Origin: Mesorhizobium australicum
GTDB taxonomy: Bacteria; Pseudomonadota; Alphaproteobacteria; Rhizobiales; Rhizobiaceae
Length of the DNA stretch: 64,000 nucleotides
NCBI RefSeq assembly: GCF_900177325.1
Contig: NZ_FXBL01000004.1
Location: 4,526,001 to 4,590,000 of the forward strand
Direction of reading: 5' to 3'
The notes under the pieces: model-generated
What the model saw: only the letters and a program-made list of their open reading frames with translations
Databases searched by the model: none
Told to the model about the DNA's origin: nothing
Part shown: one piece after another, positions 4,999 through 48,172 of the stretch
Layout of the letters: each line of letters begins with the position of its first letter
How positions within the stretch are numbered: the first letter of the stretch is position 1
Made by a program: the position numbers and the translations under genes

Positions 4999-5010
4999 TT
5001 AACCTGTTAT
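4999..5010. promoter_or_regulatory. Operator candidate A, TTAACCTGTTAT
   Basis: This is an imperfect 12-bp inverted repeat matching TTAACNNGTTAA with one end mismatch. It lies 44 bp upstream of the ABC receptor start, in the 93-bp spacer behind the dehydrogenase gene. The operon it would control ends in the HpaR-like marR gene, so binding here would give autoregulation. It belongs to the series described at 9265, 19320, 21049, 25167, 27418, 33201, 34975 and 47969. Confidence 0.62.
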
Positions 5011-5048
5011 TGATCTACCGGCAAGGCAACGGCGTAGCCAAACTTCGT

Positions 5049-5945
5049 TTACTCGGCGTCGCCCACTACAATCCCGCCGCCCCAGGCCTCGAACACCTTG
5101 ATCGTGTTGCTGTAGTCGGCCTCCGGTCCGAGCTGGTCTGCGACGAGTGCGAAGAGATTGGCGACCGTCGAGCCGACGAAAGCTGGCATCTGGGTCGAGC
5201 GTGCCAGTTTGAGGAAGAGCTGGCTGTCCTTGACGCCGATCGAGAGCGGACCGCCATATTTGAACGTGCGCGGCAGGATCGCGGCTGGAAACTTGTCGAC
5301 GGTCGCGGAGTTGCGGCCGGTGCTGGCATTGATCACGTCGATCATGGTGCGCGCATCGAGCCCCGCCTTGACACCGATCGAGACCGCTTCGCAGCTCGCG
5401 ACGAAAGCCGTGATCGACAGCATGTTGTTGACCAGCTTCACGACCTGCGCCTGGCCGGGCACATCTCCAACCTCGAAGACATGCTCGGCAAGCAGGTTCA
5501 GTGTGTCCATCGCCGTTGCGCGGGTGTCCGGTCTCCCCGCAACGATGGCGGTCAGCGTTCCCTGGTGCGCGCGCTTCGGACCGCCGCTGATCGGCGCGTC
5601 GAGGAAGCCGATGCCGCTTGCGTGGAGCTTCCCGGCAATGTGCTCCATCGCCTCCTTGCCGAGGGTCGACATCTCGACATAGGTGCGCAGCGCCGATCCG
5701 CCCGCCGCACCGTCGGCGCCGAAGGCGGCCGCGAAGCTCGCCGCCTCGGACGGCAGGCAGGCTATCGCCAGGTTGGCGCGATCCGCCACGTCGCGGGCGC
5801 TCGTGGCCGGCTCGCCGCCGAGCGCCGTGAAGGCAGCCATCCGTTCAGCACTGATGTCGTAGCCGGTGACGCTCCTGCCAAGCCCGAGCAGCCGCGCGGC
5901 CATCCCGCCGCCCATGCCGCCCAACCCGATGATTCCAATCGTCAA
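5049..5945 (-). CDS. NAD(P)-dependent beta-hydroxyacid dehydrogenase (3-hydroxyisobutyrate dehydrogenase-like)
   Basis: This 298-residue protein has the Rossmann motif GIIGLGGMGGGMAARLL at residues 4-20. The substrate-binding DAPISGGPKRAHQGTL segment lies at about 117-132, and the catalytic Lys in VVKLVNNML at about 167-175. The family oxidises 3-hydroxyisobutyrate, tartronate semialdehyde and related beta-hydroxyacids, or reduces the matching semialdehydes. It follows the arylmalonate-decarboxylase-like gene by 26 nt and the LysR gene before that, so the three form one minus-strand operon. A role on a malonate- or hydroxymalonate-type intermediate would fit the neighbour, but that is inference. 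A paralogue lies at 44159-45100. Confidence 0.88.
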   Translation of the reverse strand: MTIGIIGLGGMGGGMAARLLGLGRSVTGYDISAERMAAFTALGGEPATSARDVADRANLAIACLPSEAASFAAAFGADGAAGGSALRTYVEMSTLGKEAMEHIAGKLHASGIGFLDAPISGGPKRAHQGTLTAIVAGRPDTRATAMDTLNLLAEHVFEVGDVPGQAQVVKLVNNMLSITAFVASCEAVSIGVKAGLDARTMIDVINASTGRNSATVDKFPAAILPRTFKYGGPLSIGVKDSQLFLKLARSTQMPAFVGSTVANLFALVADQLGPEADYSNTIKVFEAWGGGIVVGDAE

Positions 5946-5971
5946 TTCACCCTCCGCTAAGGTTCGGCGTG

Positions 5972-6679
5972 TCAGGCGCCAGTTTCGTAGAGACGCCCCA
6001 TGCCGGGCGAAATGGCGCTCGATCCGGCCAGCCTGACAGCTGCCCAGCTTCCGACCATCGCGCTGGATATGACTGGCTTTCCCAGTTCGCGCTCGAGCGC
6101 GGCCGCGACCGGAGTGGTGCGCATGCCGGCGCAGGACAGCACCACCGCCTCCGCATCGGGTGCGCCCGCCGCGACCCTCCGGGCAAGGTCCGCGATCGCC
6201 TCCGGCGCCACCGCCTCCACCTCCGGCAAGGCGGTGATGCCCAGGCCCGAGATCCGCTCGATCTCGAAGCCGCAGGCCTCGAAATAACGGCGAAACATTG
6301 CGTCGACCTCAGCGGTATAGGCAGTTGCCACGGCGATGCGCCGCGCGCGCAGCCGCTCGAGAGCCTGTATCATGGCGCTGGTCAGCGTCATGGCGGGGAC
6401 CCCGGACGCTTCACGCATCGCCGCTTCCAGTTCGCCATTGAAGGCCGGCCCCTTGAAGAAGCTCAATGACGTGCCGAACAGGAGGATCGCCGAAACGCCG
6501 CGTGAGGCAAGCACGCGCGCGGTAGCCTCCACGCGACCGACGGCCTCGCCATAGCCTTCGGCCGTGAGCCCGCGCACGCCGAGCCCGGCGACCTCGAACG
6601 CGACATCTGGATACATCGCCGCCGCATCGGGCGGGACGATGCCGTCGAGCGGCGGCACGATGAGTCCCACCTTGACCAC
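5972..6679 (-). CDS. Arylmalonate decarboxylase-like protein (Asp/Glu racemase superfamily)
   Basis: This protein has 235 residues from the GTG at 6679, which follows a strong GGGAGGGA site; an ATG at 6697 overlapping the lysR stop is the alternative. From memory it closely follows Bordetella arylmalonate decarboxylase: GLIVPP at 5-10, EGYGEAV, GTSLSF at 69-74, AFN, ATAYTAEVD around Tyr121, and LSCAGM with Cys183. Racemases of this fold use two cysteines. Here, as in the decarboxylase, the first position is Gly69, Thr70 and Ser71 are in place for a dioxyanion hole, and only Cys183 remains. This supports cofactor-free decarboxylation of a disubstituted malonate rather than racemisation. Maleate cis-trans isomerases, which have two Cys, are a less likely reading. 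The gene is cotranscribed with lysR and the dehydrogenase at 5049. Confidence 0.72.
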   Translation of the reverse strand: MVKVGLIVPPLDGIVPPDAAAMYPDVAFEVAGLGVRGLTAEGYGEAVGRVEATARVLASRGVSAILLFGTSLSFFKGPAFNGELEAAMREASGVPAMTLTSAMIQALERLRARRIAVATAYTAEVDAMFRRYFEACGFEIERISGLGITALPEVEAVAPEAIADLARRVAAGAPDAEAVVLSCAGMRTTPVAAALERELGKPVISSAMVGSWAAVRLAGSSAISPGMGRLYETGA

Positions 6680-6693
6680 GTCATTCCCTCCCG

Positions 6694-7626
6694 TCATCCG
6701 TCGAGCCGCGCAGCAACCGCCTTCGCCGCCCTGACCACCAGGCCACGCAGCCAACGGTTGATCGGCGTCTGGTGCGCGCGACCGCTCCAGAACAGATGGA
6801 CGTCGAAGCTGCGATCAAACGGCGCGGCGATACGCACGCAACTCTCAGCCATAGCCGGCGCGAGCGCGGAAGGAGCGGTCAGCACAAGATCGGTTCCTTC
6901 AATCAGCCTGTGGACCATCCCGAAACTCGGCAGCTCCAGCTTGGGTATAATATCTATGTTAAGTGATTTCAGCGTCTCGCGATAGAACGGTTTCCATCCT
7001 CCGTCATAATTAACCGTCACATGCTCCGCGCGCGCATATTCTTCCAGAGAGATGCCCTCCCGCGCGGCGCGGCTGTTCCGGTCGACGAAACATGCATAGC
7101 GCTCTGTGAACAGGACACGGGTGTAGAGGCCGGCCGTGTCCGCGAGCAGCGGCGAGATCAGAATGTCGCATTCGTCGGCGAGGAGCTGACGATGACCCTG
7201 CGTGTGCGACTGCATGATCGAAACGCGTAGGCCAGGCGCCTCGGCGCGCAGCGCCCGCATAAGCTGGGGCAGGATCACCGTCCGCTCGTAGAAATTGCAG
7301 GAGATCACCAATCGTCCACGTGTCGTAGCCGGATCGAAATGTTGCGGAGCGGCGAGGCGCGCGAAATCGCGAAGCAGGCGTTCCGCCTCGGTGACGATCT
7401 CCTCACATCGCTCCGTCGGCAGGATGCCCCGCCCTGCGCGAACGAAAAGCTCGTCGCCAAACGTCTCACGCAGCCGGCCGATCGTGTAGCTGACCGTGGA
7501 CTGGTTGAGCCCCAACCGGTGCGCCGCCGCGGTCAACGATCCGGCCTTGTGCACGGTGATCAGCACGCGCAGCGCGCGCAGGTCTATGTTTCCATCGAAT
7601 TCTTCCATAGATTGGATCGATACCAT
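6694..7626 (-). CDS. LysR-family transcriptional regulator
   Basis: This protein has 310 residues from the ATG at 7626; an ATG at 7608 (MEEFDGNIDLRAL) is equally possible. The N-terminal winged HTH covers about residues 18-75, with SLTAAAHRLGLNQSTVSY and the wing FVRAGRGILPT. A LysR substrate domain follows. The open frame extends upstream to 8718, but that part is antisense to the P450 gene and not coding. It is divergent from the P450/ferredoxin pair across a 78-bp gap and overlaps the decarboxylase-like gene downstream. By the usual LysR pattern it probably controls one or both transcripts in response to a pathway intermediate. Confidence 0.9.
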   Translation of the reverse strand: MVSIQSMEEFDGNIDLRALRVLITVHKAGSLTAAAHRLGLNQSTVSYTIGRLRETFGDELFVRAGRGILPTERCEEIVTEAERLLRDFARLAAPQHFDPATTRGRLVISCNFYERTVILPQLMRALRAEAPGLRVSIMQSHTQGHRQLLADECDILISPLLADTAGLYTRVLFTERYACFVDRNSRAAREGISLEEYARAEHVTVNYDGGWKPFYRETLKSLNIDIIPKLELPSFGMVHRLIEGTDLVLTAPSALAPAMAESCVRIAAPFDRSFDVHLFWSGRAHQTPINRWLRGLVVRAAKAVAARLDG

Positions 7627-7704
7627 GCACTTGTTCGACAGATAAGCCCATGGTTCGTCCTCGCAAAAGGCAGCGCCAGGCGCGCCGCCGCGGAGGAGAG
7701 CCCG

Positions 7705-8883
7705 ATGTCGACCGCCCCGAGCGTCGAGAACATTACCCTCGGCGATCTCTATGCCGACCCCTACCCGGCCTATCGGCGTCTGCGCATGGAGGCGCCCGTC
7801 GCATGGGTGCCGGCGGCGCGGATACATCTCGTGACCCGCTTCGACGACATCATTGCCATCGAGCGTGACGCCGGGACCTTTCCGGCGCTTGACCTGCGAT
7901 CGCTTCAGATCAAGGCGATGGGGCATACGCTCATGCGCAAGGACGGCGAGGACCACAAGCGCGAGCGCGCCTTGCTTGAGCCGACCTTCCGGCCGGGCAC
8001 GGTCAAGAATCACTGGGAGCCGATCTTCGCGCGGATCGCGGACGAGTTGATCGACGGCTTCGCCGAACGGGGCGAAGCCGACATCTTCGCAGAGTTCGCC
8101 GCTCCCCTGGCCTCGCGCTGCCTGATGGAGATCCTCGGGCTGACGAATGTCGACTGGCGCGATCTCATCGGCTGGTCGCAGAGCCTGATGGACGCTGTGG
8201 GCAACTATGGCGACGATCCCGACGTCTGGGCCAAGGGCCTGGCCGCCTCGCAGGCGATTGACGCCGCTCTCGACGAGCGCATCCCTCAGTTGAAGGCAAA
8301 TCCCGATCCTTCGGTCGTCTCCGCCATGGCAAACGCCGCCGAGCCGCTGACGATCGACCAGATCAGGGCGAACGTGAAGGTGATCGTCGGCGGCGGGCTC
8401 AACGAGCCGCGCGACGCCACCTGCACGGCGCTTTACGGCCTGCTCCGTAATCCGGCCCAGTTGACCCAGGTGCTTGCCGACGACGGCCGCTGGAAAGACG
8501 TGTTCGAGGAGGCAGTGCGCTGGGTCGCGCCGATCGGCATGTATCCGCGCCGTGTCGCCAGAACGGTCGAACTCGGCGGCGCGATCCTGGAACCGGACGA
8601 CCAGATCGGCCTCGTCGTGGCGTCGGCCTGCCATGACGAGACACGGTTTGAGGACGGTCATCTGTTCGACATCAACCGCAAGCGCGCTCCGCATCTCGCC
8701 TTCGGTTCCGGCCCCCACTTCTGCCTTGGAACCTGGGCGGCGCGAAAGCAGGTTGGGGACATCGCCGTGCCCAACATCCTGCGCCGCCTGCCCAACCTGC
8801 GGCTCGACCCGGACCGCGAGGCACGTCTTGGCGGCTGGGTCTTCCGCGGTCTCCTGAATCTTCCCGTGAAATGGGACGCCTGA
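7705..8883 (+). CDS. Cytochrome P450
   Basis: This soluble bacterial P450 has 392 residues from the ATG at 7705, which follows GGAGGAGAG. The heme-binding motif FGSGPHFCLG has its ligand at Cys340. The K-helix ExxR is Glu269-Arg272. The I-helix reads VGGGLNEPRDAT at about 228-239, so the usual acid-Thr pair of oxygen activation is replaced by a Glu-Pro-Arg-Asp stretch. A [2Fe-2S] ferredoxin gene follows 8 nt downstream; no ferredoxin reductase is present in the window. Likely reactions are hydroxylation or O-demethylation of an aromatic or terpenoid substrate, but the substrate cannot be told from sequence. The longer frame from 7339 runs over lysR and is rejected. Confidence 0.93.
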   Translation: MSTAPSVENITLGDLYADPYPAYRRLRMEAPVAWVPAARIHLVTRFDDIIAIERDAGTFPALDLRSLQIKAMGHTLMRKDGEDHKRERALLEPTFRPGTVKNHWEPIFARIADELIDGFAERGEADIFAEFAAPLASRCLMEILGLTNVDWRDLIGWSQSLMDAVGNYGDDPDVWAKGLAASQAIDAALDERIPQLKANPDPSVVSAMANAAEPLTIDQIRANVKVIVGGGLNEPRDATCTALYGLLRNPAQLTQVLADDGRWKDVFEEAVRWVAPIGMYPRRVARTVELGGAILEPDDQIGLVVASACHDETRFEDGHLFDINRKRAPHLAFGSGPHFCLGTWAARKQVGDIAVPNILRRLPNLRLDPDREARLGGWVFRGLLNLPVKWDA

Positions 8884-8891
8884 GAAAAGCC

Positions 8892-9215
8892 ATGCCGAAG
8901 ATCACGATCGTGGACCATCATGGCAACGAGCACGCCATCGAGGCGCAATCCGGCGAATCTGTCATGCAACTTGCCATTGCAAACGGTATAGACGGCATCG
9001 TCGCCGAGTGCGGCGGCAACTGCGCCTGCGCCACCTGTCACGTCTATGTCGACGAGGCGTTCCTGGCCAGCCTTCCGCCGCCCCTCGATCACGAAGAGGA
9101 CATGCTTGGCTTCACAGCGGCCGAACGCCGCCCGGGAAGCCGCCTTTCCTGCCAGATCGTCCTGTCCGACGCGACGGATGGGCTGATCGTCAGGATTCCC
9201 GACACGCAGGTATAA
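8892..9215 (+). CDS. [2Fe-2S] ferredoxin, putidaredoxin/adrenodoxin type
   Basis: This protein has 107 residues from the ATG at 8892. The cluster ligands follow the spacing Cys40-x5-Cys46-x2-Cys49 with the fourth at Cys87 (SRLSCQIV), as in putidaredoxin; an extra Cys44 lies inside the loop. The conserved ATCHVYVDE segment and C-terminal RIPD are present. It would pass electrons to the P450 encoded immediately upstream. The reductase must come from elsewhere in the genome, because no FAD-dependent partner lies in the window. Confidence 0.93.
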   Translation: MPKITIVDHHGNEHAIEAQSGESVMQLAIANGIDGIVAECGGNCACATCHVYVDEAFLASLPPPLDHEEDMLGFTAAERRPGSRLSCQIVLSDATDGLIVRIPDTQV

Positions 9216-9264: not shown

Positions 9265-9276
9265 ATAACCTGTTAA
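9265..9276. promoter_or_regulatory. Operator candidate B, ATAACCTGTTAA
   Basis: This palindrome has one mismatch to TTAACNNGTTAA and lies 35 bp upstream of the TTG start at 9311, in a short AT-rich stretch. It would control the plus-strand operon of SnoaL-like protein, aldehyde dehydrogenase, crotonase and GMC oxidoreductase. The core AACCTGTT is identical to sites A and C. Confidence 0.62.
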
Positions 9277-9310: not shown

Positions 9311-9757
9311 TTGATCGACATCGGCGACCATTTTCGCGTTCGCAACCTGATCACCGACTATGTCTGGAAGCTCGACATGGCCGATATCGAAGGCGTGCTG
9401 GATCTTTTCCTTCCCGACGGGATCTTCGAGGACACCGCCGGCACGGTGTATCATGGTCGCGAGGAGATCGGCGGCTACTTCCGCATGCTGACCAACCTGC
9501 CCGCGTTCCGTGGCAGGCAGCACCACATCGACAACCTGCGCATCGAACCCGATGCAGGCGGCGGCTATTCGGTGCGATCCTACTGGACGGTCACGAAATG
9601 GCGGACCGCCGAAAACCACGTCAAGATGATCGAGAGCCTTGGCCATTCGCTCGACGTGCTGGTCCGGCATGGCGACGGCTTTCTCTTCGCCGAGCGCCGC
9701 GTTCATCACTGGCGCGACGCCGACTGCCCCTGGGTTCCCGACGGCACGGCCGTCTGA
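9311..9757 (+). CDS. SnoaL-like (NTF2-fold) protein
   Basis: This 148-residue protein begins at TTG, 6 nt after GGGAGGG. The NTF2-like fold is visible in IRNL/VRNLITDYVWKLD at the N-terminus, VLDLFLPDGIFEDTAGTVYHGREEI at about 30-54, and a closing strand with AERRVHHW. The family includes small dehydratases, isomerases and polyketide cyclases as well as non-catalytic subunits. It heads the operon with aldehyde dehydrogenase, crotonase and GMC oxidoreductase, so it probably acts on an intermediate of that route. A second SnoaL-like protein occurs at 39345-39983, also in an operon with GMC and aldehyde dehydrogenases. The function is not assigned. Confidence 0.78.
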   Translation: MIDIGDHFRVRNLITDYVWKLDMADIEGVLDLFLPDGIFEDTAGTVYHGREEIGGYFRMLTNLPAFRGRQHHIDNLRIEPDAGGGYSVRSYWTVTKWRTAENHVKMIESLGHSLDVLVRHGDGFLFAERRVHHWRDADCPWVPDGTAV

Positions 9758-9772
9758 CCGGCGCGGCGCCGG
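9758..9772. other. GC-rich hairpin after the SnoaL-like gene
   Basis: CCGGCG-CGG-CGCCGG forms a 6-bp stem directly after the stop codon at 9755-9757. No T-tract follows, and the next gene starts 75 nt later in the same direction. It is therefore more likely a processing or stabilising element than a full terminator. Confidence 0.35.
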
Positions 9773-9847
9773 GGGCTCACCCGCCATTTTATCCAGGGAC
9801 CAGGCTTTCGCCGTAGCAACGGCGCCCCGACCGAGGGAGGTAACCGC

Positions 9848-11320
9848 GTGCAGCACTATCAGATGTATATCGGAGGACGCTGGGTCGAAGGGTCGACCGG
9901 CGAACGCTTCGAAACGATTGACCCCTACACCGGAAAGCCATGGGCCACGATCGCGCGCGGCACCGAGGCGGATGCGGCCCTCGCCGTGGAGACGGCTCAT
10001 GCGGCGATGCGCACCGGCCCATGGGCGACGATGTCGGCGAGCGCCCGCGGCGCCCTGCTCCGCCGCCTCGGCGACGCGATTACCGAAAACGCCAAATTCC
10101 TCGGCGAGGTGGAGACGCGCGACAACGGCAAGCTGATCGCGGAAATGGGACTGCAGGTCCGCTACCTGCCGCAATTCTGCTACTACTATGCCGGCCTCGC
10201 GGACAAGATCGAGGGCACGGTGCCGCCTGTCGAGCGCGCGGGCTATTTCAACTACACCCGCAACGAGCCGATCGGCGTCGCCGTCGCGATCACGCCCTGG
10301 AATTCGCCGCTGATGCTCGGCGTCAACAAGGTCGCAACGGCGCTGGCCGCCGGCTGCGCAGTGGTGGTGAAGCCGTCCGAGTTCACGTCCGCCTCGACAC
10401 TGGAACTTGCGCGGCTGGTCGAGAAGGTGGGCTTTCCGCCGGGTGTCTTCAACGTCGTGTGCGGTTACGGCCAGGACGTCGGGGCAGCACTCGTGCGACA
10501 CCCGAAGACCGCCAAAGTATCCTTCACCGGCAGCGAACATGGCGGCCGCACGGTCTACGAAGCTGCCGCGCGCGGCTTCAAGTCGGTGACGCTGGAACTC
10601 GGCGGTAAGTCGCCGAACATCGTCTTCGACGATGCCAATCTCGACGATGCCGTGAAGGGTGCGGTGTCGGGCATCTTCGCCGCGTCGGGCCAGACCTGCA
10701 TTGCCGGCTCGCGCCTTCTGCTGCACGAGACCATCCACGACCAGTTCGTCGAGCGCCTGCTCGCCTATGCGAAGACGGCGCGCATCGGCAATCCGATGCT
10801 GGAGGACACACAAGTCGGCCCGGTGACGACGCCACCGCAGTACAAAAAAATCCTCGACTATATCGAAGTCGCGAAGTCGGAAGGCGCCGAGCTGGTTCTT
10901 GGCGGCGGGGCCTCAGATGTCGGGGAATGGTTTGTCCAGCCGACGATCTTCACCAATGTCGACAACCGCATGCGGATTGCGCAGGAGGAGGTGTTCGGCC
11001 CTGTCCTTTCGGTCATCAAGTTCCGGGACCAGGAGGAGGCGATCGCGATCGCCAACGACACGATGTATGGCCTGGCCGCCGGCGTGTGGACACAGAACAT
11101 CCGTCGCATGTTCACCATGGCCAATGCGATCGAGGCGGGAACAGTGTGGGTCAACACCTATCGCGCCGCCAGCTACACGACGCCGTTCGGTGGATACAAG
11201 AACTCCGGGCTTGGCTACGAAAGCGGCGTGAACGCCATCCGCCAGTATCTCAAGACCAAGAGCGTGTGGATCAATTTCGATGCGGATGTCCCCAATCCGT
11301 TCGTCATGCGGCTGACCTGA
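9848..11320 (+). CDS. NAD(P)-dependent aldehyde dehydrogenase
   Basis: This 490-residue protein starts at GTG, 7 nt after GGGAGG. The conserved ALDH features are present: TPWNSPL at 149-155, the general base Glu250 in TLELGGKSP, the nucleophile Cys284 in SGQTCIAGSR, and EEVFGPV. It oxidises an aldehyde to the acid in the cytoplasm. The GMC oxidoreductase encoded two genes downstream could supply the aldehyde from a primary alcohol, and the crotonase would act on the CoA ester later. Succinic semialdehyde, the end product of the hpa pathway, is another possible substrate, since no dedicated gabD is seen. Related enzymes lie at 17374 and 42672. Confidence 0.9.
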   Translation: MQHYQMYIGGRWVEGSTGERFETIDPYTGKPWATIARGTEADAALAVETAHAAMRTGPWATMSASARGALLRRLGDAITENAKFLGEVETRDNGKLIAEMGLQVRYLPQFCYYYAGLADKIEGTVPPVERAGYFNYTRNEPIGVAVAITPWNSPLMLGVNKVATALAAGCAVVVKPSEFTSASTLELARLVEKVGFPPGVFNVVCGYGQDVGAALVRHPKTAKVSFTGSEHGGRTVYEAAARGFKSVTLELGGKSPNIVFDDANLDDAVKGAVSGIFAASGQTCIAGSRLLLHETIHDQFVERLLAYAKTARIGNPMLEDTQVGPVTTPPQYKKILDYIEVAKSEGAELVLGGGASDVGEWFVQPTIFTNVDNRMRIAQEEVFGPVLSVIKFRDQEEAIAIANDTMYGLAAGVWTQNIRRMFTMANAIEAGTVWVNTYRAASYTTPFGGYKNSGLGYESGVNAIRQYLKTKSVWINFDADVPNPFVMRLT

Positions 11321-11359
11321 GCGCGGTCTGTCGACGGCGGGACACTGCAAGGAGACAGC

Positions 11360-12139
11360 ATGGGCACCGTTCATCACGAGATCGACGAAGGCGTTCTGGT
11401 TCTCACACTCGACAATCGGGGCACCAACAGCATCGACCTCGACATGGCGCACCAGCTCGCCTCGCTCATCGAGGCGCGTGCGCCGGATGTCGGAGCGATC
11501 TTGCTGACGGGCAAGGGCGACGGCGCCTTCTGCGCCGGCTCAGATCTTGGCGAACTGAAGCGGGCGCATGATGCCGGCAGTGGCCCGGCGGAACTTCTTG
11601 GTGCCGAGAACCGCGCCTTCGACCTGATCGCCTCGCTCGACATTCCCACCCTCGTCGCGATCAACGGCGTCGCTGTCGGCGGTGGGGTCGAACTCAGCGC
11701 CTGCTGCGACATAGTCTATGCGTCGGAAACCTCCAGTTTCTCGTTGCCGGAAATCCGTCTGGGCGTGTTCCCCGGCATCGGCGGGACGGTGAGGATCCCG
11801 CGCCGCATCGGCTACAGCCGCTCAATGGAGCTGATGCTGACCGGCCGCACCGTCAAGGCAGCGGAAGCGTTGCAGATCGGCCTCGCCCACCGGGTGATCG
11901 CGCCGGCCGACGTGCTTGCCGAGACGCTCAAGCTCGCCCGGCGCTTCGCCAAGGGACCGCCCCACGCCATCGCGACGCTGAAGGCCACCATGCGTCGGGG
12001 ATGGGAGATGCCGGAGCGTGAGGCACTTGAGGATGCCTTGGCAGCCGCCGTTGCGCTCGGCGGATCGGCCGAGGTGACCGAAGGTCTGCGCGCCTTCTTC
12101 GCCAAGGAAGAGCCGCGCTTTCCCCGTCGTGGATCGTGA
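11360..12139 (+). CDS. Enoyl-CoA hydratase/isomerase (crotonase family)
   Basis: This 259-residue protein has an AAGGAG ribosome binding site. The crotonase features are the oxyanion hole around ADLGEL and INGVAVGGGVELSACCDI, and the catalytic Glu in LPEIRLGVFPGIGGT at about residues 132-146, as in true hydratases. It would hydrate or isomerise a CoA thioester. It lies between the aldehyde dehydrogenase and the GMC oxidoreductase in a plus-strand operon with 39- and 48-nt gaps. It differs from the PaaG-like crotonase at 8-808, which lacks this Glu. Confidence 0.88.
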   Translation: MGTVHHEIDEGVLVLTLDNRGTNSIDLDMAHQLASLIEARAPDVGAILLTGKGDGAFCAGSDLGELKRAHDAGSGPAELLGAENRAFDLIASLDIPTLVAINGVAVGGGVELSACCDIVYASETSSFSLPEIRLGVFPGIGGTVRIPRRIGYSRSMELMLTGRTVKAAEALQIGLAHRVIAPADVLAETLKLARRFAKGPPHAIATLKATMRRGWEMPEREALEDALAAAVALGGSAEVTEGLRAFFAKEEPRFPRRGS

Positions 12140-12187
12140 CAGGACTAAGCCGGCGCTTTCCGAGGAAGGCCGGGAGAGGAAATTGAC

Positions 12188-14650: not shown

Positions 14651-14657
14651 GTGAATC

Positions 14658-16330: not shown

Positions 16331-16344
16331 TTCACCCCTTTCCG

Positions 16345-17325: not shown

Positions 17326-17350
17326 GTGTTCGTCCCTTCTCCTAGAGCTG

Positions 17351-17372
17351 CGTATCGGCTCTTGCCGATACG
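17351..17372. other. Perfect intercistronic hairpin between hpaE and hpaD
   Basis: CGTATCGGC and GCCGATACG form a perfect 9-bp stem with a TCTT loop. On the minus strand the hairpin lies just upstream of the hpaD-distal end of the spacer, 1 bp beyond the hpaE stop codon at 17374-17376 and 25 nt downstream of the hpaD start side. Gene order on the transcript is hpaF, hpaE, hairpin, hpaD. No T-run follows, so partial termination or protection of the hpaFE transcript end is more likely than full termination. Confidence 0.5.
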
Positions 17373-17373
17373 G

Positions 17374-19319: not shown

Positions 19320-19331
19320 TTAACCTGTTAA
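19320..19331. promoter_or_regulatory. Operator candidate C, perfect palindrome TTAACCTGTTAA
   Basis: This is a perfect match to TTAACNNGTTAA, 31 bp upstream of the hpaF start. It lies in the 145-bp non-coding gap that also contains the hairpin terminator of the upstream receptor gene. It is the expected place for an HpaR-type operator, which makes this copy the anchor for assigning the motif to the MarR protein at 810-1376. Confidence 0.72.
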
Positions 19332-34974: not shown

Positions 34975-34986
34975 TTAACTTGTTTC
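34975..34986. promoter_or_regulatory. Operator candidate H, TTAACTTGTTTC
   Basis: The left arm is perfect for TTAACNNGTTAA; the right arm has two changes at its end. It lies in the 106-bp divergent gap, 24 bp from the DUF3237 copy 3 start and 72 bp from the ligase ATG, where it could act on both promoters. Confidence 0.45.
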
Positions 34987-35057
34987 TTATCTTGCGTTGA
35001 CACACAATGTCCAGCGCCTCGGCCCTGCTCCTGCACAGGCCGTTCGGGAGGAAAATC

Positions 35058-38517: not shown

Positions 38518-38560
38518 CGTCTTCCTCCGACTCTGCCTCTGTCCGCGTCGCGGACGATCC

Positions 38561-39343: not shown

Positions 39344-39344
39344 G

Positions 39345-39983: not shown

Positions 39984-40034
39984 GGTCCCTTCCTGCGGCC
40001 AGGCGGGCCGGCCCAAGCCGGCCCGCTCGCGCCA

Positions 40035-41039: not shown

Positions 41040-41067
41040 TTCAGTCTCCTCCTTCTTGTTCGGTTAT

Positions 41068-42672
41068 TCACATGCGGCCCGCGATCAGGTCGCTTGCTTT
41101 TTCGGCGATCATGATGGCAGGCGCATTGGTGTTGCCGCCGACGATGGACGGCATGATCGACGCATCCGCGACGCTCAGGCCGGACACGCCGCGCACGCGA
41201 AGCTCGGGATCGACCACGGACGACGGATCGGCTCCCATCCGGCAGGTGCCGACGGGATGGAACGCTGTCGCGGCGGTGTGGCGCACGAAGTCGCCAAGAT
41301 CGGCGTCGCTCCACTCCGGACCGGGAACGATCTCCGCCCGCCCGTATCGCGCCAGCGCCCGGCTGGCCGCCAGGCGTTTCGCGATGCGCAGCCCCCGGAC
41401 GATGGTCGCGACATCCGCACTGTCCGAGAAAAGACCGAAGTCGATCAGCGGCTTGTCGTCCATGCGCGCTCCGGACAGCCGCACTGAGCCGGTCGACACC
41501 GGATGCAGCGCGACCACGCCGATCGAGAAGCCATGGCCGATGCCGAGCGTGCCGCCCGGCTTGCGCAGGGCCGGGCAGAAGACGAGTTGCACATCCGGCC
41601 GGTCGAGGTGCGGCAGGGTCCTCACATAGCCGGCGGCCTCGAAGATGTTGGACGCGAACATTCCCTCGCGGCGCAGGACATAGCGCGCCGCCTCGCCGGC
41701 GAGCTGCGGAAGCTTGGCCAGCGAAATGCCGTAGGAATCTCGGGTCGATCCCTCCCAGACGACCTGGGAAGATGGATGATCCGCGAGGTTCTGCCCGACA
41801 TCCGGCCGATGGCGCACCACTGGTATCCCCAGGCGCAGGAGATCCTCGCCGGGGCCGATGCCCGACCGCATCAGGATCGCCGGCGACCCGAAGGCTCCCG
41901 CCGCCAGGACGACTTCGCGCCGGGCCCGTACCGTCCTTCGGATCCGACCGCACACCTGAACGCCGATCGCGCGGCCATCCTCGATTGTGACGTGCGATAC
42001 GTCGGCGCCCGTCATGACCCGCAGATTGGGCCTCCGCCGCGCGGGGCGCAGAAAGGCTGTCGCAGTGGTAACCCTCGCACCGCGCAGGATGTTCACCTGG
42101 CGCAGGCCGAAACCGTCCTGTTCGGCCCCGTTGATGTCGTCGTTGCGGGCAAAGCCGAGTTCAACCGCGGCCTCGAGAAAAGCGCCGGCGAGCGGATTGG
42201 GCCGCTTCGCGGTCGCGACCGTGAAAGGTCCGCCCTTGGCGTGGAAGGGGCCGTCGAGATCGAGATTGTCCTCCGATCTGCGGAAGTAGGGCAGAACGTC
42301 GTCATAGCCCCAGCCGACATTTCCCGCCGCGCGCCAGTCGTCGTAGTCGCGCCGATGACCGCGCGTGTAGACCATGCCGTTGAGGCCGCCGCTGCCGCCG
42401 AGCATGCGCCCGCGCGGAACCGGGATTTCCCGGCCGCCGAGCCCGGGCTGCGGCGTCGAGGCGTAGCCCCAGCCGAGCTTCGGGTGATTGATCAAACCGA
42501 CCATGCCGACGGGAACATGAATATAGGGGTGGCGGTCTTCCGGTCCCGACTCAAGCAGGCAGACAGAGTTCCGCGGGTTCTCCGACAACCGGTTCGCGAG
42601 CACGCAGCCCGCAGTGCCGCCACCGACGATGAGGAAATCGAATGTCTCGTCGGCAGCATCCCGCCCCCTCAT
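41068..42672 (-). CDS. GMC-family FAD-dependent oxidoreductase (choline dehydrogenase-like)
   Basis: This 534-residue paralogue of the enzyme at 12188-13816 has the FAD motif VGGGTAGCVLANRLSE at about residues 15-30, GRMLGGSGGLNGMVYTRG at about 87-104 and C-terminal AFHPVGTCRMG with GGNTNAPA. It oxidises a primary alcohol to aldehyde. Its ATG overlaps the aldehyde dehydrogenase stop (TAATG), so alcohol and aldehyde oxidation are translationally coupled. The gene follows HIBADH-like and aldehyde dehydrogenase genes in the TRAP operon. Confidence 0.9.
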   Translation of the reverse strand: MRGRDAADETFDFLIVGGGTAGCVLANRLSENPRNSVCLLESGPEDRHPYIHVPVGMVGLINHPKLGWGYASTPQPGLGGREIPVPRGRMLGGSGGLNGMVYTRGHRRDYDDWRAAGNVGWGYDDVLPYFRRSEDNLDLDGPFHAKGGPFTVATAKRPNPLAGAFLEAAVELGFARNDDINGAEQDGFGLRQVNILRGARVTTATAFLRPARRRPNLRVMTGADVSHVTIEDGRAIGVQVCGRIRRTVRARREVVLAAGAFGSPAILMRSGIGPGEDLLRLGIPVVRHRPDVGQNLADHPSSQVVWEGSTRDSYGISLAKLPQLAGEAARYVLRREGMFASNIFEAAGYVRTLPHLDRPDVQLVFCPALRKPGGTLGIGHGFSIGVVALHPVSTGSVRLSGARMDDKPLIDFGLFSDSADVATIVRGLRIAKRLAASRALARYGRAEIVPGPEWSDADLGDFVRHTAATAFHPVGTCRMGADPSSVVDPELRVRGVSGLSVADASIMPSIVGGNTNAPAIMIAEKASDLIAGRM

Positions 42673-44162
42673 TAGAGCGACACCAGCACCGATTTGATCT
42701 CGGTGTAGATCTCGACGCCTTCGCGGCCGTATTCGCGCCCCCAGCCCGACTGTTTGAAACCACCAGCCGGAAGACCCTGGTCGAGGCCGCCGCCGTTGAT
42801 CTTGACCGTCCCCGCGCGGATACGCGAAGCGAGCTTGTGCGCGGCACTGAGATTGCTGGTGAAGACGTTGGCGGCGAGCCCGTAGCTCGTGTCGTTTGCC
42901 TCGGCGGCGAGCGCGTCGAGGGTCGCGTCGTCGAACGAAACGGCGCAGAGCACAGGCCCGAAGATTTCCTCGCGTCGCACCGCCATGTCACGGCGCGTGC
43001 CGCCCAGGATCGTCGGTTCGACGAAATAGCCCGGGCGGTCGACGGTCCTGCCGCCGACGATCGCCTCCGCGCCGTCCGAGAGGCCTGAACGAATGTAGCC
43101 GGCGACGCGATCCTGCTGCACATCCGACACCAGCGGGCCGATCTCGGTCGCAGGGTCGAGGCCCGCCCCAACCTTGAGAGCCCTCGCCCGTTCCGCGACG
43201 CCCTTGACGAGGTCGTCGAAGACGGATGCGTGGGCGAAGAGGCGCGAGCCGGCGGTGCAGACCTGCCCGGAGTTGAAGAAGATGCCGTTGGCGACGCCGG
43301 GAATGGCCTTGTCGAGATCGGCGTCGGGCATGACGATGACCGGCGACTTGCCGCCGAGCTCGAGCGTCAGCCGCTTCAGATTGTCTGCCGCCGCCCGCAC
43401 GATGATCTTGCCCACCTCGGTCGAGCCGGTGAACGAGATCTTGTCGACGTCCCGATGGGCCGCGATCGCCGCGCCTGCGTCTTCGCCGAAGCCGGTCACG
43501 ATGTTGACGACGCCGGCGGGAAAGCCCGCTTCCTCGATCAGCTCGCCAAGCCGCAGCGCCGTGAGAGGCGTCTGCTCCGCCGGCTTCAGGACCATGGTGC
43601 AGCCCGCCGCCAAGCTAGGCGCCAACTTGCCCACGGCCGATGCGATCGGGGCATTCCACGCCACGATGTGCCCGACCACCCCCACCGGCTCGCGCACGGT
43701 GTAGCCGAGCCACTCGCCCGGCAGCGACATCGGCGGCGTCTCGCCATTGATCTTCGTCGCCCAGCCGGCGTTGTAGCGTAGGCGTTCCGCGGCGAACGGC
43801 ACGTCCATCCCCAGCGAGACACGCAACGGCTTGCCGTTGTCGAGCGTCTCCAGGACCGCCAGTTCCTCCCGGTGCAGATCCACCAGTTCGGCCAGACGCC
43901 ACATCATCGCCGCGCGCTGCGCCGGGGTGATCTTCCGCCATGGGCCTTCGAAAGCCTTGCGCGCGGCCGCAACGGCGCGGTCGATGTCCGCTTCCGTTCC
44001 GCGCGGAACGGCGCACAGCACCGAACCGTCGGATGGATCGAGCGTGTCGAAGCTCCCACCATTCTCCGCCTCGACCCAGCGGCCGTCGATCATCATCTTC
44101 TTGGGCCGCGCGATCCACGCGCGGGCCTTGTCTATGGCGAGGGAGGTTACCTGCATATTCAT
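42672..44162 (-). CDS. NAD(P)-dependent aldehyde dehydrogenase
   Basis: This protein has 496 residues from the ATG at 44162. It has AWNAPIA at 168-174, Glu268 in TLELGGKSP and the nucleophile Cys302 in NSGQVCTAGSR. The closing pattern GGFKQSGWGREYG is typical of betaine/aromatic-aldehyde dehydrogenases. The upstream frame to 44789 is antisense to the HIBADH-like gene. The ATG overlaps that gene's stop by 4 nt. It probably oxidises the aldehyde made by the coupled GMC oxidoreductase. Confidence 0.9.
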   Translation of the reverse strand: MNMQVTSLAIDKARAWIARPKKMMIDGRWVEAENGGSFDTLDPSDGSVLCAVPRGTEADIDRAVAAARKAFEGPWRKITPAQRAAMMWRLAELVDLHREELAVLETLDNGKPLRVSLGMDVPFAAERLRYNAGWATKINGETPPMSLPGEWLGYTVREPVGVVGHIVAWNAPIASAVGKLAPSLAAGCTMVLKPAEQTPLTALRLGELIEEAGFPAGVVNIVTGFGEDAGAAIAAHRDVDKISFTGSTEVGKIIVRAAADNLKRLTLELGGKSPVIVMPDADLDKAIPGVANGIFFNSGQVCTAGSRLFAHASVFDDLVKGVAERARALKVGAGLDPATEIGPLVSDVQQDRVAGYIRSGLSDGAEAIVGGRTVDRPGYFVEPTILGGTRRDMAVRREEIFGPVLCAVSFDDATLDALAAEANDTSYGLAANVFTSNLSAAHKLASRIRAGTVKINGGGLDQGLPAGGFKQSGWGREYGREGVEIYTEIKSVLVSL

Positions 44163-45100
44163 GGCTGCTCTTCCGGTCGGCTGCTTGCGGACTGACGGCC
44201 CCAGAGGCTGTCGAGATACTGGTAGACACGCGTGAGATCGGTATCGCCCATCGCCTCCAGGGCATCCCCCAGTACACGGGCGAAGTGCCGCGGCGTGGTC
44301 TCTCCGAAGCCCACGGCCTCCGCGGTCTCGGCCGCGATCCGCGCATCCTTCGTCGCCAGCGCCAGGCTGAAATTGTGTGCAAACCGCTGGGACAGGATCT
44401 GTTGCGCCAGCACGATCTCGGTCGAGAGATTCTTCGCATAGGAGACGTTGAGGATCTCGACCATTGTCTCGGGCTTCAGCCCGAACCGCTGCCCTATCAG
44501 CAGCGCCTCGAAGTCGAGCAGCATCTGGCTCGTGCCGATATAGTTGACCAACGTCTTCATTGCGTGGCCGGAGCCCGAAGGGCCGGTGTGGAAGACGGTG
44601 CGGCCCATGCCGCGAAGGATCGCATCGGCACGACGCACGGCATCCTCCGTGCCGCCGGCCATCATCGTCAGCGTTCCGGCGCGCGTGCCGGGAACACCGC
44701 CTGAGACCGGCGAATCCACCATCGCGAAGCCGAGCTCCCGCAGTTCCACCGCCAGCGATTGGGTGTGGGATGGAGCGCACGACGAGCAATCGACTACCAG
44801 CATATCAGGCCGCGACACCGCGATCGGCCGCGCCCCATCGCCTTCGCCGAGCAGTGCTCGACGCACGAAATGCCCGTCGGGCAGCATCAACACAACCGCC
44901 GCCACATCGCTGAGCGCATCCGTGGGCGAGGTGGCTGCCGCCTGCCCGGTCGCCTGCTCGAACTCGCGCCTGCGCTCCTCGGAGAGGTCGTACGCCTTTA
45001 CTGTGAACCCATTGCGGGCAAGCGTCGCAGCCATGCCGCTGCCCATGGCTCCGAGGCCGAGAAATCCCACCGGCCCCGGCGCCGCGATTATGTCGGTCAT
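44159..45100 (-). CDS. NAD(P)-dependent beta-hydroxyacid dehydrogenase (3-hydroxyisobutyrate dehydrogenase-like)
   Basis: This protein has 313 residues from the ATG at 45100. GFLGLGAMGSGMAATLA near 12-28 is the Rossmann motif. VDSPVSGGVPGTRAGTLTMM near 125-144 and the Lys in AMKTLVNYIG mark the substrate site. It belongs to the same family as 5049-5945 but is not a close copy. It lies between dctM and the aldehyde dehydrogenase in the TRAP operon and could oxidise a C4-C5 beta-hydroxyacid imported by that system. Confidence 0.88.
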   Translation of the reverse strand: MTDIIAAPGPVGFLGLGAMGSGMAATLARNGFTVKAYDLSEERRREFEQATGQAAATSPTDALSDVAAVVLMLPDGHFVRRALLGEGDGARPIAVSRPDMLVVDCSSCAPSHTQSLAVELRELGFAMVDSPVSGGVPGTRAGTLTMMAGGTEDAVRRADAILRGMGRTVFHTGPSGSGHAMKTLVNYIGTSQMLLDFEALLIGQRFGLKPETMVEILNVSYAKNLSTEIVLAQQILSQRFAHNFSLALATKDARIAAETAEAVGFGETTPRHFARVLGDALEAMGDTDLTRVYQYLDSLWGRQSASSRPEEQP

Positions 45101-45108
45101 TGATCCTC

Positions 45109-46410
45109 TCAGTTCATTGAATTCGGAATCACCAGCGAGATCCACGGGAACAGGACCAGGATGATGAGCCGTAGGATGTCCGACGCGATGAAGGGCATCA
45201 CGCCGCGATAGATCTGCCCTAACGACACGTCTTTCGAGATAGAATTGATGACGAACACGTTCATGCCCACCGGGGGCAGGATCAGCCCGAGCGTGACGAC
45301 CATGACGATGATCACCCCGAACCAGATCGGGTCAAAACCAAGCGCCACGATCACCGGATAGATGATCGGCACGGTGAGCAGGATGATCGCCAGCTCGTCC
45401 ATGAGCGCACCCATGATGAGATAGACGACCAGGATCAGTGCAAGGACGCCATAGGGGCCGACCGGCAGGTGCACGAGGAAATCGGTCAGCTTCTGGGTCG
45501 TCTGCGTCACGGTGAGGAAATAGCCGAACAGATAGGCGCCCATGGCGATCACGAAGATCGATGCGCTGGTCTGCAGCGCCTCCACGAGACATCGTAATAT
45601 CCGCTTCGGCCCGAGCCGGCCGCGCAGGATGCCGATCACCATCGCACCGACTGCGCCCACGCTCGCCGCCTCCGTGACAGTGACGAAGCCGCCATACATC
45701 GCACCTACGACAACAGCGAAGAGAAGAAGCGTCGCCCAGATGTCCTTGAGAGAGTCGACACGTTCGCTCCAGGGACTGCGCGCACCCACTGGGCAAAGCT
45801 CTGGCCGGAAGTGGATCACGATCCGCGTGGTGGCGATGTACATGACGATGGCGAGAAAGCCCGGCAGGATGCCCGCCATGAACAGCTTCGAGACGTTCTG
45901 GTCCGTCAGGATGCCATAGAGGAGCATGACGACGGACGGCGGGATCATGATGCCCAGCGTTCCGCCCGCGGCGATCGCGCCGGCCGAGATTCCCGGATCG
46001 TAGCCCTGCTCGCGCATTTCCGGCAGCGCAACGGTCGTCATCGTCGCGGCGGTGGCAACCGATGAGCCGTTGATGGCGGCGAAGCCACCGCAGGCAAGAA
46101 TGGTCGAGATGATGGATCCGCCCCTGAGATGCCCGAACCAGGCCTTGTTGGCGCGGAACAGTTCACGGCTCATGCCGCCGGCCGTCGCGAAGATGCCCAT
46201 CAGCACGAACATGGGGATCACCGACAGCGTGTAGTCGGTGACCGTCCGGAAAGGAGAGTTCATAAGGAGATTGAGGCCTGGCCAGAAGCCGTTGACGCCC
46301 GCGAAGCCGATCACGCCGGCGATACCCATCGAAAAGCCGATCGGCACGCGCAGTGCCATAAGGGCGAACATGATGACGAAGCCGCCGATGGCGATGAACG
46401 TGTTGCTCAT
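45109..46410 (-). CDS. dctM: TRAP transporter large permease DctM
   Basis: This protein has 433 residues from the ATG at 46410, with about 12 hydrophobic segments. The DctM signature FVLMGIFATAGGMSRELF lies near 75-92. GGTLGIMIPPSVVMLLYGI near 152-170 and GLILPPVGMNVFVI near 365 mark the helical hairpins. It is the Na+-coupled membrane subunit that works with DctQ and the periplasmic DctP. The longer frame to 46839 crosses dctQ and is rejected. It follows dctQ by 11 nt. Confidence 0.93.
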   Translation of the reverse strand: MSNTFIAIGGFVIMFALMALRVPIGFSMGIAGVIGFAGVNGFWPGLNLLMNSPFRTVTDYTLSVIPMFVLMGIFATAGGMSRELFRANKAWFGHLRGGSIISTILACGGFAAINGSSVATAATMTTVALPEMREQGYDPGISAGAIAAGGTLGIMIPPSVVMLLYGILTDQNVSKLFMAGILPGFLAIVMYIATTRIVIHFRPELCPVGARSPWSERVDSLKDIWATLLLFAVVVGAMYGGFVTVTEAASVGAVGAMVIGILRGRLGPKRILRCLVEALQTSASIFVIAMGAYLFGYFLTVTQTTQKLTDFLVHLPVGPYGVLALILVVYLIMGALMDELAIILLTVPIIYPVIVALGFDPIWFGVIIVMVVTLGLILPPVGMNVFVINSISKDVSLGQIYRGVMPFIASDILRLIILVLFPWISLVIPNSMN

Positions 46411-46421
46411 GAGAACTCTCG

Positions 46422-46892
46422 TCAGGCTGTGAGTGTGCCGCGAACCAGGCGATAAGCGCGCACGAAGGCGACGATCGACGCGAAAACGGCACCGGCTGCC
46501 GCTGCCGCGAGGAACAGCCACACCGAAAGTTGAAGCTCGTTTGTGACTTCGAAACTTGCCTTGCTGCGAATAACTTTCAGCGAGAGCATATAAGCCATCG
46601 TTCCCAGAAACAGGCCCGAGACCACCGCGGCGAAGACGTCGATGCGGAGCCGGTTCAACGCGTTCGCCGCATCCCAAAGGATATCGACATTGATGTGCCT
46701 GCCCGCATAGGTCGCGCTGGCAATGCCCCAGAAGATGGCTACGCCCTGCGCGTAGCCGGAAAGAGAGTAGGCATCCGGAACCTGCACTCCGAAAAGGTAG
46801 CGCAGAGATGCCTCGATAAAGGTCAGCGCGACGACGCACCCCAGAAGAAGGCCGGACACAACGTCGATGGCGGAGAGGAAACGTGAAAGCAT
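46422..46892 (-). CDS. dctQ: TRAP transporter small permease DctQ
   Basis: This 156-residue protein has four hydrophobic helices: VVSGLLLGCVVALTFIEASL, a second near 42-58, a third near 82-104 and a last near 122-142. The family segment GRHINVDILWD at about 63-73 is present. It scaffolds DctM at the inner membrane. It lies between the first receptor and dctM, in the usual P-Q-M order. Confidence 0.88.
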   Translation of the reverse strand: MLSRFLSAIDVVSGLLLGCVVALTFIEASLRYLFGVQVPDAYSLSGYAQGVAIFWGIASATYAGRHINVDILWDAANALNRLRIDVFAAVVSGLFLGTMAYMLSLKVIRSKASFEVTNELQLSVWLFLAAAAAGAVFASIVAFVRAYRLVRGTLTA

Positions 46893-46917
46893 GACATATG
46901 CCCGTCGCGCTGGAAGA

Positions 46918-47925
46918 TCAGAAGCCGGCGCCGTATTCGGCGAGCTTTTTCTTCAGTTCGTCGAGCAACTTGTTGCCGTCGAGCTTGTAGCGTGACACCG
47001 CGGCTACCGCCTTCTCGCGGATGCTGTCACCGGCCGCAACCCACTGCTTCGTCTCTTCCTCGTTCGGCTTGTAGACGACATGGCCGGGATCAGCGATCAG
47101 ATCCGCCTTGGCCTTGAGCTCGCGCTCAGCCCATGGCGTGGACAGCTTCTCCGACCATTCCGGCGTGCAGTGCGAGTCCACTGCTGCCTTCTGCGCGTCG
47201 GTCAGCCCTTCGTAGAACGGCTTGTTGAGGACAAAGCCCTGCGTGCCGACATAAATCGGCAAATCGACGTGGTACTTGAGGCTGTCCTTGGAGTTGATGA
47301 CGGACAGGTCCCAAGGGAAGGTGATGCCATCGACCACGCCGCGCTCGACGAGCTCGCGCACCTCCGGAAGGGCCGCCTGGACCGTCGTTGCCCCCTGCCC
47401 CGTGACATAGGCCACAGAGGTGGCGCCGGCCACGCGGAGTTTCTTTCCATTCATGTCGGCAGGCACCTTCACCTGCTCCGACTTCATGTGCAGCGTCGCC
47501 GGATGGTGCATGCTCATGACGCAGAGCTTGACGTCGGGCATCTCCAGATCGGCGTAGTCGAGATACCATTCGTGCAGCGCGCGCACGCCCTTCGTGCTGT
47601 TGCTGAAGAGGAACGGCACCTCGTCGAGCAGGAAAATGGGGAACTGCCCGCTGTTGTAGGCCGGCGCGACCATTGTCATCTCTGCAATGCCGTCACGTGC
47701 CATGTCGTATTGATCAACGGCCTTGCCCAACTGCTCGGCCGGGAAAAGCGTGACCTTGATCGTGCCGCCGGACGCTTCGGCCAGCGACTTCCCCCAATCT
47801 TCGAAAGACTTGACCAGGATGTGGGTCGGCGGCACCCAGAACGAGACCCGTATCTCCTTTTCCTGGGCATAGGCACTCGTCATCGTCGCGGCGGCAAAAA
47901 TGCCAGCCACCAAAGCGCTTCTCAT
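46918..47925 (-). CDS. dctP: TRAP transporter substrate-binding protein DctP, first receptor
   Basis: This protein has 335 residues from the ATG at 47925, which follows GGGAGGA; the frame to 47964 adds 13 residues without a signal function. The signal peptide ends near residue 20 (SAYAQEK). The DctP fold shows PAEQLGKAVDQYDMARDGIAE and ERGVVDGITFPWDLS. It is the first gene of an 11-kb minus-strand operon that runs to the CoA ligase at 36976, and the palindrome at 47969 lies 44 bp upstream. Confidence 0.92.
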   Translation of the reverse strand: MRSALVAGIFAAATMTSAYAQEKEIRVSFWVPPTHILVKSFEDWGKSLAEASGGTIKVTLFPAEQLGKAVDQYDMARDGIAEMTMVAPAYNSGQFPIFLLDEVPFLFSNSTKGVRALHEWYLDYADLEMPDVKLCVMSMHHPATLHMKSEQVKVPADMNGKKLRVAGATSVAYVTGQGATTVQAALPEVRELVERGVVDGITFPWDLSVINSKDSLKYHVDLPIYVGTQGFVLNKPFYEGLTDAQKAAVDSHCTPEWSEKLSTPWAERELKAKADLIADPGHVVYKPNEEETKQWVAAGDSIREKAVAAVSRYKLDGNKLLDELKKKLAEYGAGF

Positions 47926-48172
47926 GTGTAGAATCCTCCCGTTCGCGACGGCTGGGGCCATCACTGATTTAACATATTAAGTAATTTTCAGTCTGTCAAA
48001 TTGGAAAGGCGGGAGCCGGCCCGATCGGGTTAGCTGGAACCGCTGAAACACAGCCTACAGATGACCCGGCTCCGCCCGACTTAAAGCGCGAACCGCCAGG
48101 ACAGAACCATCTCGTTAACATGCTTTCTTTCGGGAAAAGCATCGCGCACCGCTGGCAGCGCGACCGGGGGTG
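47926..48172. other. Non-coding region upstream of the TRAP operon
   Basis: No gene is seen here. It holds operator candidate I and, at 48115, a single half-site TTAAC. It is the left part of the 498-bp gap between the TRAP operon and livF; the right part contains the ATPase remnant. Confidence 0.6.
47969..47980. promoter_or_regulatory. Operator candidate I, TTAACATATTAA
   Basis: This is a self-complementary palindrome differing from TTAACNNGTTAA only by A for G in the right arm. It lies 44 bp upstream of the first TRAP receptor gene in an AT-rich stretch. It is the rightmost member of the series; none is seen to the right of 48 kb. Confidence 0.58.

Follow-up and report, generated by a model that had tools for sequence, protein, structure and literature searches.

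The window analysed here, a 64,000-nucleotide stretch of the genome of Mesorhizobium australicum (assembly GCF_900177325.1, contig NZ_FXBL01000004.1, positions 4,526,001 to 4,590,000 of the forward strand), carries a family of nine palindromes of the form TTAACNNGTTAA distributed over 43 kb of genes for the import and breakdown of aromatic compounds. With a probability that we put at roughly 87%, the palindromes are operators of the MarR-family regulator HpaR encoded at 810-1376 on the reverse strand, which would block the promoters until an acid inducer releases it. On the best reading of the sequence, repression by HpaR extends to some seven to nine promoters serving three importers, β-oxidation, oxidase/ligase operons and homoprotocatechuate (hpa) ring cleavage. 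The reading was built by computation from the sites, their clustering, their position at promoters, their conservation and the presence of the same operator at hpaR homologues.

Results

A search of the window for TTAACNNGTTAA, against which all mismatches were counted, located each of the nine palindromes of the original prediction and reproduced its division into seven sites that fit the consensus and two that are degenerate. The sites at 19320 and 21049 are exact, those at 4999, 9265, 25167, 33201 and 47969 have one mismatch, and those at 27418 and 34975 have two. The window was compared with shuffled sequence of the same composition, a control proposed with the prediction. With up to two mismatches the window contained 11 sites, compared to 2.77 (standard deviation 1.71) in 100 shuffles of which none reached 11; the two sites additional to the nine are at 21006, over the start of an SBP_bac_5 receptor gene, and at 33283. 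All seven sites with at most one mismatch are non-coding, while permutation of only the 5,236 non-coding bases of the window gave 0.05 (maximum 1, 300 shuffles). In the whole genome of 5,858,750 bp the same threshold was reached at nine places, seven of which are inside the window (binomial P = 6.6e-13), and an equal density elsewhere was not found. The reversed pattern used as a control occurred at 30 places compared to nine for the motif, indicating that the motif is not enriched genome-wide and that the case therefore rests on clustering. Two places lie outside the window. One, C4:1651026 (L003:1501-1512), with the sequence TTATCTAGTTAA, is approximately 73 bp before an imelysin-type gene (PF09375) with no link to the pathway and is probably a chance match; the other, C4:3997052, is seemingly inside a long open frame. 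The location of the seven best sites exclusively in AT-rich non-coding DNA is what would be expected of chance matches in AT-rich gaps or of a dispersed repeat, an explanation that is nonetheless so improbable as to be negligible given the shuffled non-coding DNA, the occurrence of only two further places in 5.8 Mb and the finding that the flanks of the sites are unlike each other.

The sites are conserved and positioned at predicted promoters. In a comparison with G005, a relative of the same genus with 93% identity across 48 kb, the nine sites showed no change in their 108 bases, versus 41 changes among the 540 flanking bases within 30 bp (P = 4e-4). The best sigma-70-type hexamer pair on the target strand overlaps or brackets the site in seven of nine cases, and the mean promoter score was 8.81 compared to 7.08 at non-coding anchors chosen at random, a level reached in 0 of 10,000 resamples. 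The operator at 47969 covers the −10 hexamer of the promoter TTGACA-17-TATGTT. When the window was scored with a matrix derived from 87 sites in relatives, to which the window itself contributed none, nine non-coding positions ranked highest, consisting of the seven strong sites, 34975 (score 19.3, sixth best) and 33283 (14.4). Scores were lower at 6951 (9.7) and 27418 (9.0), the latter a weak site. Position 6951, in the gap between the genes for arylmalonate decarboxylase (AMDase) and a P450, was not accepted as an operator, the score being near those of 27418 and of 53725 (7.4), a position outside the block shared with G005.

The protein encoded at 810-1376 scored 138.5 bits with the HpaR equivalog model TIGR02337, above the cut-off of 121.2. 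The nearest solved relatives are HpaR (7el2) and NadR (5aip), and the closest of the named loci are from Aminobacter, Nitratireductor and Chelativorans, which makes a Rhizobiaceae-type alphaproteobacterium the probable source. The palindrome TTAACNNGTTAA has the TTAA-N4-TTAA form of the footprinted HpaR operator; according to passages of PMC7180172, footprints of Yersinia HpaR contain TTAA-XXXX-TTAA, similar to that of Escherichia coli W, and one overlaps the −10 region. The same palindrome was recovered without use of the window in a set of 80 named loci, mostly from Bradyrhizobium, that were retrieved by HpaR alignment alone. Palindromes of several shapes were counted, and among those with 5-base arms and a spacer of 2, TTAAC (TTAAC-N2-GTTAA) ranked first by the ratio of observed to expected and was present in 64 of the 80 loci compared to 0.2 expected; a site with at most one mismatch was present in 69. 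When 34 stretches of other genomes were added to give 114 loci, the exact sites totalled 79, of which 62 adjoin hpaR and 72 precede hpaF or hpaH. Among 201 genomes the exact motif was present in 33 of 46 with an HpaR homologue compared to 41 of 155 without (P = 4e-8, base composition and relatedness ignored). For the weak site at 27418, support is provided by one-mismatch sites in the hpaB/araC gaps of L107 and of G033/L063.

The palindrome could instead be read by another regulator, either the HpaA-like AraC-family protein (27417-28325) or another MarR protein, and features of the genome speak for this: the AraC-family gene is inside the cluster adjoining hpaB, and there are six further MarR-like matches in the genome. 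The string TTAACNNGTTAA also appears in a paper on Streptococcus AdcR, of which it is presumably the box, so that HpaR need not be the sole MarR-type protein able to recognize it. This explanation is nevertheless improbable, in that the motif of other genomes stands beside hpaR itself (62 of the 79 exact sites) and the other MarR-like matches are weak, the best having an E value of only 1.9e-7. AraC proteins usually read direct repeats. HpaR remains the preferred reader of the palindromes.

The predicted ligand pocket of HpaR was compared with that of NadR, for which passages of PMC4841544 list the residues contacting 4-hydroxyphenylacetate (4-HPA). Seven contacts, Ser9, Met22, Phe25, Leu29, Trp39, Arg43 and Tyr115, are kept as S20, M33, F36, L40, W50, R54 and Y126, and Asp36 corresponds to Glu47. 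His7 and Asn11, for which mutation alters the response of NadR to 4-HPA (PMC4841544, in part), are replaced by Ser18 and Pro22, and Leu21 and Val111 are also changed. Of the positions considered for binding the carboxylate of hydroxyphenylacetate, Ser9, Trp39, Arg43 and Tyr115 are thus kept, and His7 and Asn11 are not. The inducer may differ from 4-HPA given these changes; the comparison as a whole makes some arylacetate the likely inducer.

Sixty genes were called in the window by codon usage, 50 of which were named by Pfam. The hpaR gene (PF01047) is followed by an enoyl-CoA hydratase/isomerase gene (8-808, reverse strand) and stands downstream of an NMT1-type ATP-binding cassette (ABC) importer operon (1505-4955, reverse strand; receptor 3918-4955, permease 3124-3768, ATPase 2271-3119, permease 1505-2251) that runs leftward from 4955 towards hpaR. 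The operator at 4999-5010 is 44 bp before this operon and has an orthologous site in G261 and G370. Beyond it are genes for a HIBADH-type dehydrogenase (5049-5945, reverse strand; PF14833/PF03446) and AMDase (5972-6697, reverse strand; PF17645, NF052327) and a P450-ferredoxin pair (7339-9215). The operator at 9265-9276 is 35 bp before an operon encoding SnoaL, aldehyde dehydrogenase, enoyl-CoA hydratase and GMC oxidoreductase (9311-13816, forward strand). The ring-cleavage operon hpaF-hpaE-hpaD-hpaG-hpaH-hpaI (13844-19289, reverse strand; CHMI, Aldedh, glyoxalase, FAA_hydrolase and HpcH_HpaI), in which TIGR02295 HpaD and TIGR02312 HpaH are above cut-off, is preceded by the exact operator TTAACCTGTTAA at 19320-19331, located 31 bp before hpaF (18891-19289, reverse strand) and at the same position before hpaF/hpaH in relatives. 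A peptide/dipeptide-type ABC importer (19435-25006, reverse strand) has two operators, the exact site at 21049-21060, 37 bp before the receptor gene (19435-21012, SBP_bac_5), and that at 25167-25178, 161 bp before the gene for a fused ATPase (22949-25006) and directly past hpaC; the permeases are at 21091-21930 and 21990-22943. The hpaC flavin reductase gene (25214-25726) and hpaB (25737-27302) are on the reverse strand, and the product of hpaB scored 745.4 bits with the HpaB model TIGR02310, under the cut-off of 885.2. The degenerate candidate at 27418-27429 is in the hpaB/araC gap, 116 bp from the start codon. The original prediction that it overlaps the araC start holds with the ATG at 27417 of the open reading frame list, although not with the GTG at 27489 called by codon usage (araC end 28325, forward strand; PF12833). 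The araC product scored 110 bits with the HpaA equivalog model TIGR02297, for which the cut-off is 274.65.

In the right half, an operon for thiolase, a FadB-type enzyme, alcohol dehydrogenase and a 4HBT thioesterase (28341-33164, reverse strand) has an operator at 33201-33212, 37 bp before the thiolase gene, and the second, two-mismatch candidate at 33283-33294 is in the thiolase/DUF3237 gap; sites before thiolase were also found in G261 and G412. Three adjoining DUF3237 genes (PF11578) are at 33404-33904 (forward), 33953-34426 (reverse) and 34472-34909 (reverse), and DUF3237 is also found in the clusters of G261, G370 and G412 and beside an operator-like site in G007. The site at 34975-34986 separates the leftward DUF3237 gene from a rightward gene for an AMP-forming acyl-CoA ligase (35007-36920, forward strand), from which it is 21 bp distant. 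An operon of approximately 11 kb (36976-47925, reverse strand) encodes a tripartite ATP-independent periplasmic (TRAP) transporter (DctP, DctQ, DctM), HIBADH, aldehyde dehydrogenase, GMC, a second DctP, SnoaL, a short-chain dehydrogenase/reductase and a CoA ligase, and its operator at 47969-47980 is 44 bp upstream. The spacing of 24-45 bp given previously applies to most of the sites, those at 25167 and 27418 falling outside and that at 34975 slightly closer. A half-operator, TTAACATGCTTT, is at 48115-48126, at a distance of approximately 146 bp from the operator at 47969. The short stretch containing it looks alike in G005 with the surrounding DNA differing; the half-operator may serve as a distal second site of the kind reported for HpaR in Yersinia.

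The AMDase of the window was above the curated cut-offs of NF052327 (241.1 compared to 225) and PF17645 (261.7 compared to 25.9). The GTSLSF and LSC motifs align with 3dg9, and glycine 74 and the single catalytic cysteine 188 are present, the roles of which are described in passages of PMC4996985. In three other genera, the clusters around AMDase (G261/G370, G412 and G390) contained much of the same gene set in a different order, with operator-like sites at several matching promoters. Sites precede the NMT1 importer and ligase2, after hpaR, in G261 and G370, which belong to one genus; G261 has a further site before thiolase. In G412 they are located 64 bp before AMDase, between aldehyde dehydrogenase and thiolase (exact) and before hpaF, and the 20-kb AMDase cluster of G390 contains four. 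In G007, two of the four exact sites of the genome are between AMDase and a CMD-HIBADH-TRAP operon; one-mismatch sites mean little in this genome because it is AT-rich, with 83 places at that threshold. Sites were also found 21-29 bp before the hpaF genes of G261, G370 and G315, which are elsewhere in those genomes. The equivalog cut-off was exceeded by HpaR of G261, HpaR of G007 and one of the two in G412. G412 has two adjoining HpaR-like genes (L223:1914-3210) with products 41% and 74% identical to HpaR of the window, the first scoring 118.0 compared to the cut-off of 121.2.

Eighteen AMDase loci were compared, namely the window's own, that of G005, the seven best-scoring of 24 others and nine more from a list of 16. 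A site with at most one mismatch was present in eight (own, G005, G007, G261, G370, G412, G315 and G390) and absent from ten (G143, G033, G016, G040, G045, G137, G337 twice, G356 and G428), a result that weighs against the link to AMDase. Across the AMDase regions of G007 and eight further genomes, 16 sites were counted compared to 0.88 expected, in a tally that omits the window, G005 and six regions with zero sites (G143, G033, G016, G040, G045 and G137). These results bear on the alternative in which control by HpaR is confined to hpaF-I, with hpaB as a possible addition, and the remaining sites are decoys or inherited copies without effect. In 62 of the 80 hpaR loci there was indeed a single site with at most one mismatch in the stretch examined, mostly at hpaR, hpaF or hpaH. 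The non-hpa sites of the window are however equally unchanged between the two genomes and are located at core promoters, and in other genera the thiolase and NMT1 promoters also carry sites, leaving a restriction to the hpa genes unlikely.

A block of approximately 57.6 kb, which starts about 9.6 kb beyond the left end of the window (L065:10368) and extends to 48010, is colinear with G005 at 93%, and both of its flanks map elsewhere on the G005 chromosome. BLAST places the right break approximately 30 bp past the final operator; inspection by eye shows short similarity as far as approximately 48130. A search of six other members of the genus at E ≤ 1e-20 yielded no HpaR in four, and the G004 homologue reaches just 40%. 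The cluster looks like a unit that was gained, lost or moved, based on the relocated flanks in G005 and the patchy distribution of HpaR in the genus. No tRNA genes were found in the window or its own flanks.

Discussion

Several results weigh against the reading of the palindromes as HpaR operators. No operator was found in the 128-bp gap upstream of hpaR itself, and the residues corresponding to His7, Asn11, Leu21 and Val111 of NadR are changed. Sites with at most one mismatch are missing from 11 of the 80 hpaR loci, which are not independent because most are from Bradyrhizobium, and the exact motif is missing from 13 of the 46 genomes with an HpaR homologue; no site at this threshold was found within 60 kb in G106, whose HpaR is 65% identical, and G025 has a single one, 22 kb away. 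The best promoter match misses the site at 4999 and 27418. Only four of the 166 genome places with exactly two mismatches are in the window compared to 1.8 expected (P = 0.11); the number of such sites was therefore dropped as support, and 27418 and 34975 are unsupported by count alone. Some genes within the 43 kb are without an operator. The 641-bp gap shared by the AMDase-HIBADH genes (6697-5049) and the P450-ferredoxin pair (7339-9215) contains no site with up to two mismatches, and position 6951 is no more than a weak candidate at the AMDase promoter. The statement that 43 kb is under one repressor was thus too strong. The further description of the regulon as local fits this genome and is a trait of it alone, since in G261 hpaF is approximately 100 kb from the AMDase cluster with its operators. 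The separation of hpaR (810-1376) from hpaF (18891-19289) departs from the usual arrangement beside the ring-cleavage operon, an adjacency that is not a strict requirement because the equivalog model is defined by sequence.

With these corrections the observation of a nine-site palindrome family is confirmed, and a regulon under an HpaR-like MarR protein is supported by four independent lines, namely the equivalog score, the operator form, the palindromes at hpaR loci and the conservation, with 27418 its weak member and binding predicted from sequence. Binding, repression and the inducer are drawn from HpaR and NadR by analogy, and read-through into hpaR is likewise inferred. A dimer of HpaR on TTAACNNGTTAA, within or over the core promoters, would keep RNA polymerase off by steric hindrance. 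A hydroxyphenylacetate-type acid, probably 4-HPA or homoprotocatechuate, would bind between the dimer and DNA-binding domains and release HpaR, opening the importers, side-chain enzymes and hpa ring-cleavage operon together, such that uptake, side-chain processing and ring cleavage would start at the same time. The importer promoter at 4999, itself under operator control, is probably upstream of hpaR, an arrangement that would provide feedback.

HpaR of E. coli W and Yersinia pseudotuberculosis represses the homoprotocatechuate ring-cleavage (hpa-meta) operon according to passages of PMC7180172 and, for E. coli, PMC6888825. The system proposed here is similar to these in the MarR-family HpaR, the TTAA-N4-TTAA operators, one of which is over a −10 hexamer, and the hpa ring-cleavage operon as a target. 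It differs in the spread of operators across 43 kb, at about seven to nine promoters that include those of three import systems, β-oxidation and oxidase/ligase operons, and in the location of hpaR after an importer, approximately 17.5 kb from hpaF. A non-catabolic target, type VI secretion system 4 (T6SS4), has also been reported for Yersinia HpaR (PMC7180172, in part). NadR of Neisseria meningitidis is a close relative of HpaR that is released by 4-HPA from its operators, one of which is over a −10 hexamer, as given in parts of PMC2791445 and PMC4841544; in contrast to the present case, NadR controls nadA and other genes and no catabolic cluster, and two residues key to its response to 4-HPA are lost here. 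The AMDase gene is near TRAP and ABC transporter genes, as in the neighbourhoods described in passages of Maimanakos et al. 2016 (PMC4996985), in which no link to HpaR or homoprotocatechuate genes such as that proposed here appears. The results are consistent with an expanded HpaR regulon in which a known type of repressor has a target set wider than its known role, which covers a single hpa operon and, in Yersinia, T6SS4.

From the gene set, a route can be proposed that begins with import of an aryl compound, proceeds through side-chain oxidation, CoA-dependent β-oxidation and perhaps AMDase, and ends in 4-HPA. A tentative extension, against which the odds stand somewhat, is that an HpaR-type repressor governs a modular side-chain pathway in which an aryl compound with a branched C3 chain would be imported, oxidized by HIBADH, GMC and aldehyde dehydrogenase to an arylmalonate, decarboxylated by AMDase to (hydroxy)phenylacetate and degraded by HpaBC and homoprotocatechuate cleavage, with the product inducing all of the genes; the pathway would be conserved in Rhizobiaceae-type bacteria and would be the natural role of AMDase. 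The natural substrate of AMDase remains to be identified according to passages of Maimanakos et al. 2016 (PMC4996985). The recurrence of an operator-linked AMDase gene set across genera is new here. No paper with both 'HpaR' and 'arylmalonate decarboxylase' was found among the open-licence papers searched, a description in a subscription journal or regulon database being possible, and 'HpaR' is absent from the main text of the comparative regulon paper PMC5343134.

The operator would group importers with side-chain enzymes and ring cleavage into a single physiological unit. Because this operator-linked set is found again in other genera in a different order, it can show which genes share one pathway. 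AMDase, an enzyme used in biocatalysis, is placed next to hydroxyphenylacetate metabolism, and the shared operator offers a route to its natural role. One sensor, HpaR, probably switches on several systems for the uptake and breakdown of aromatic compounds together, including genes linked to AMDase.

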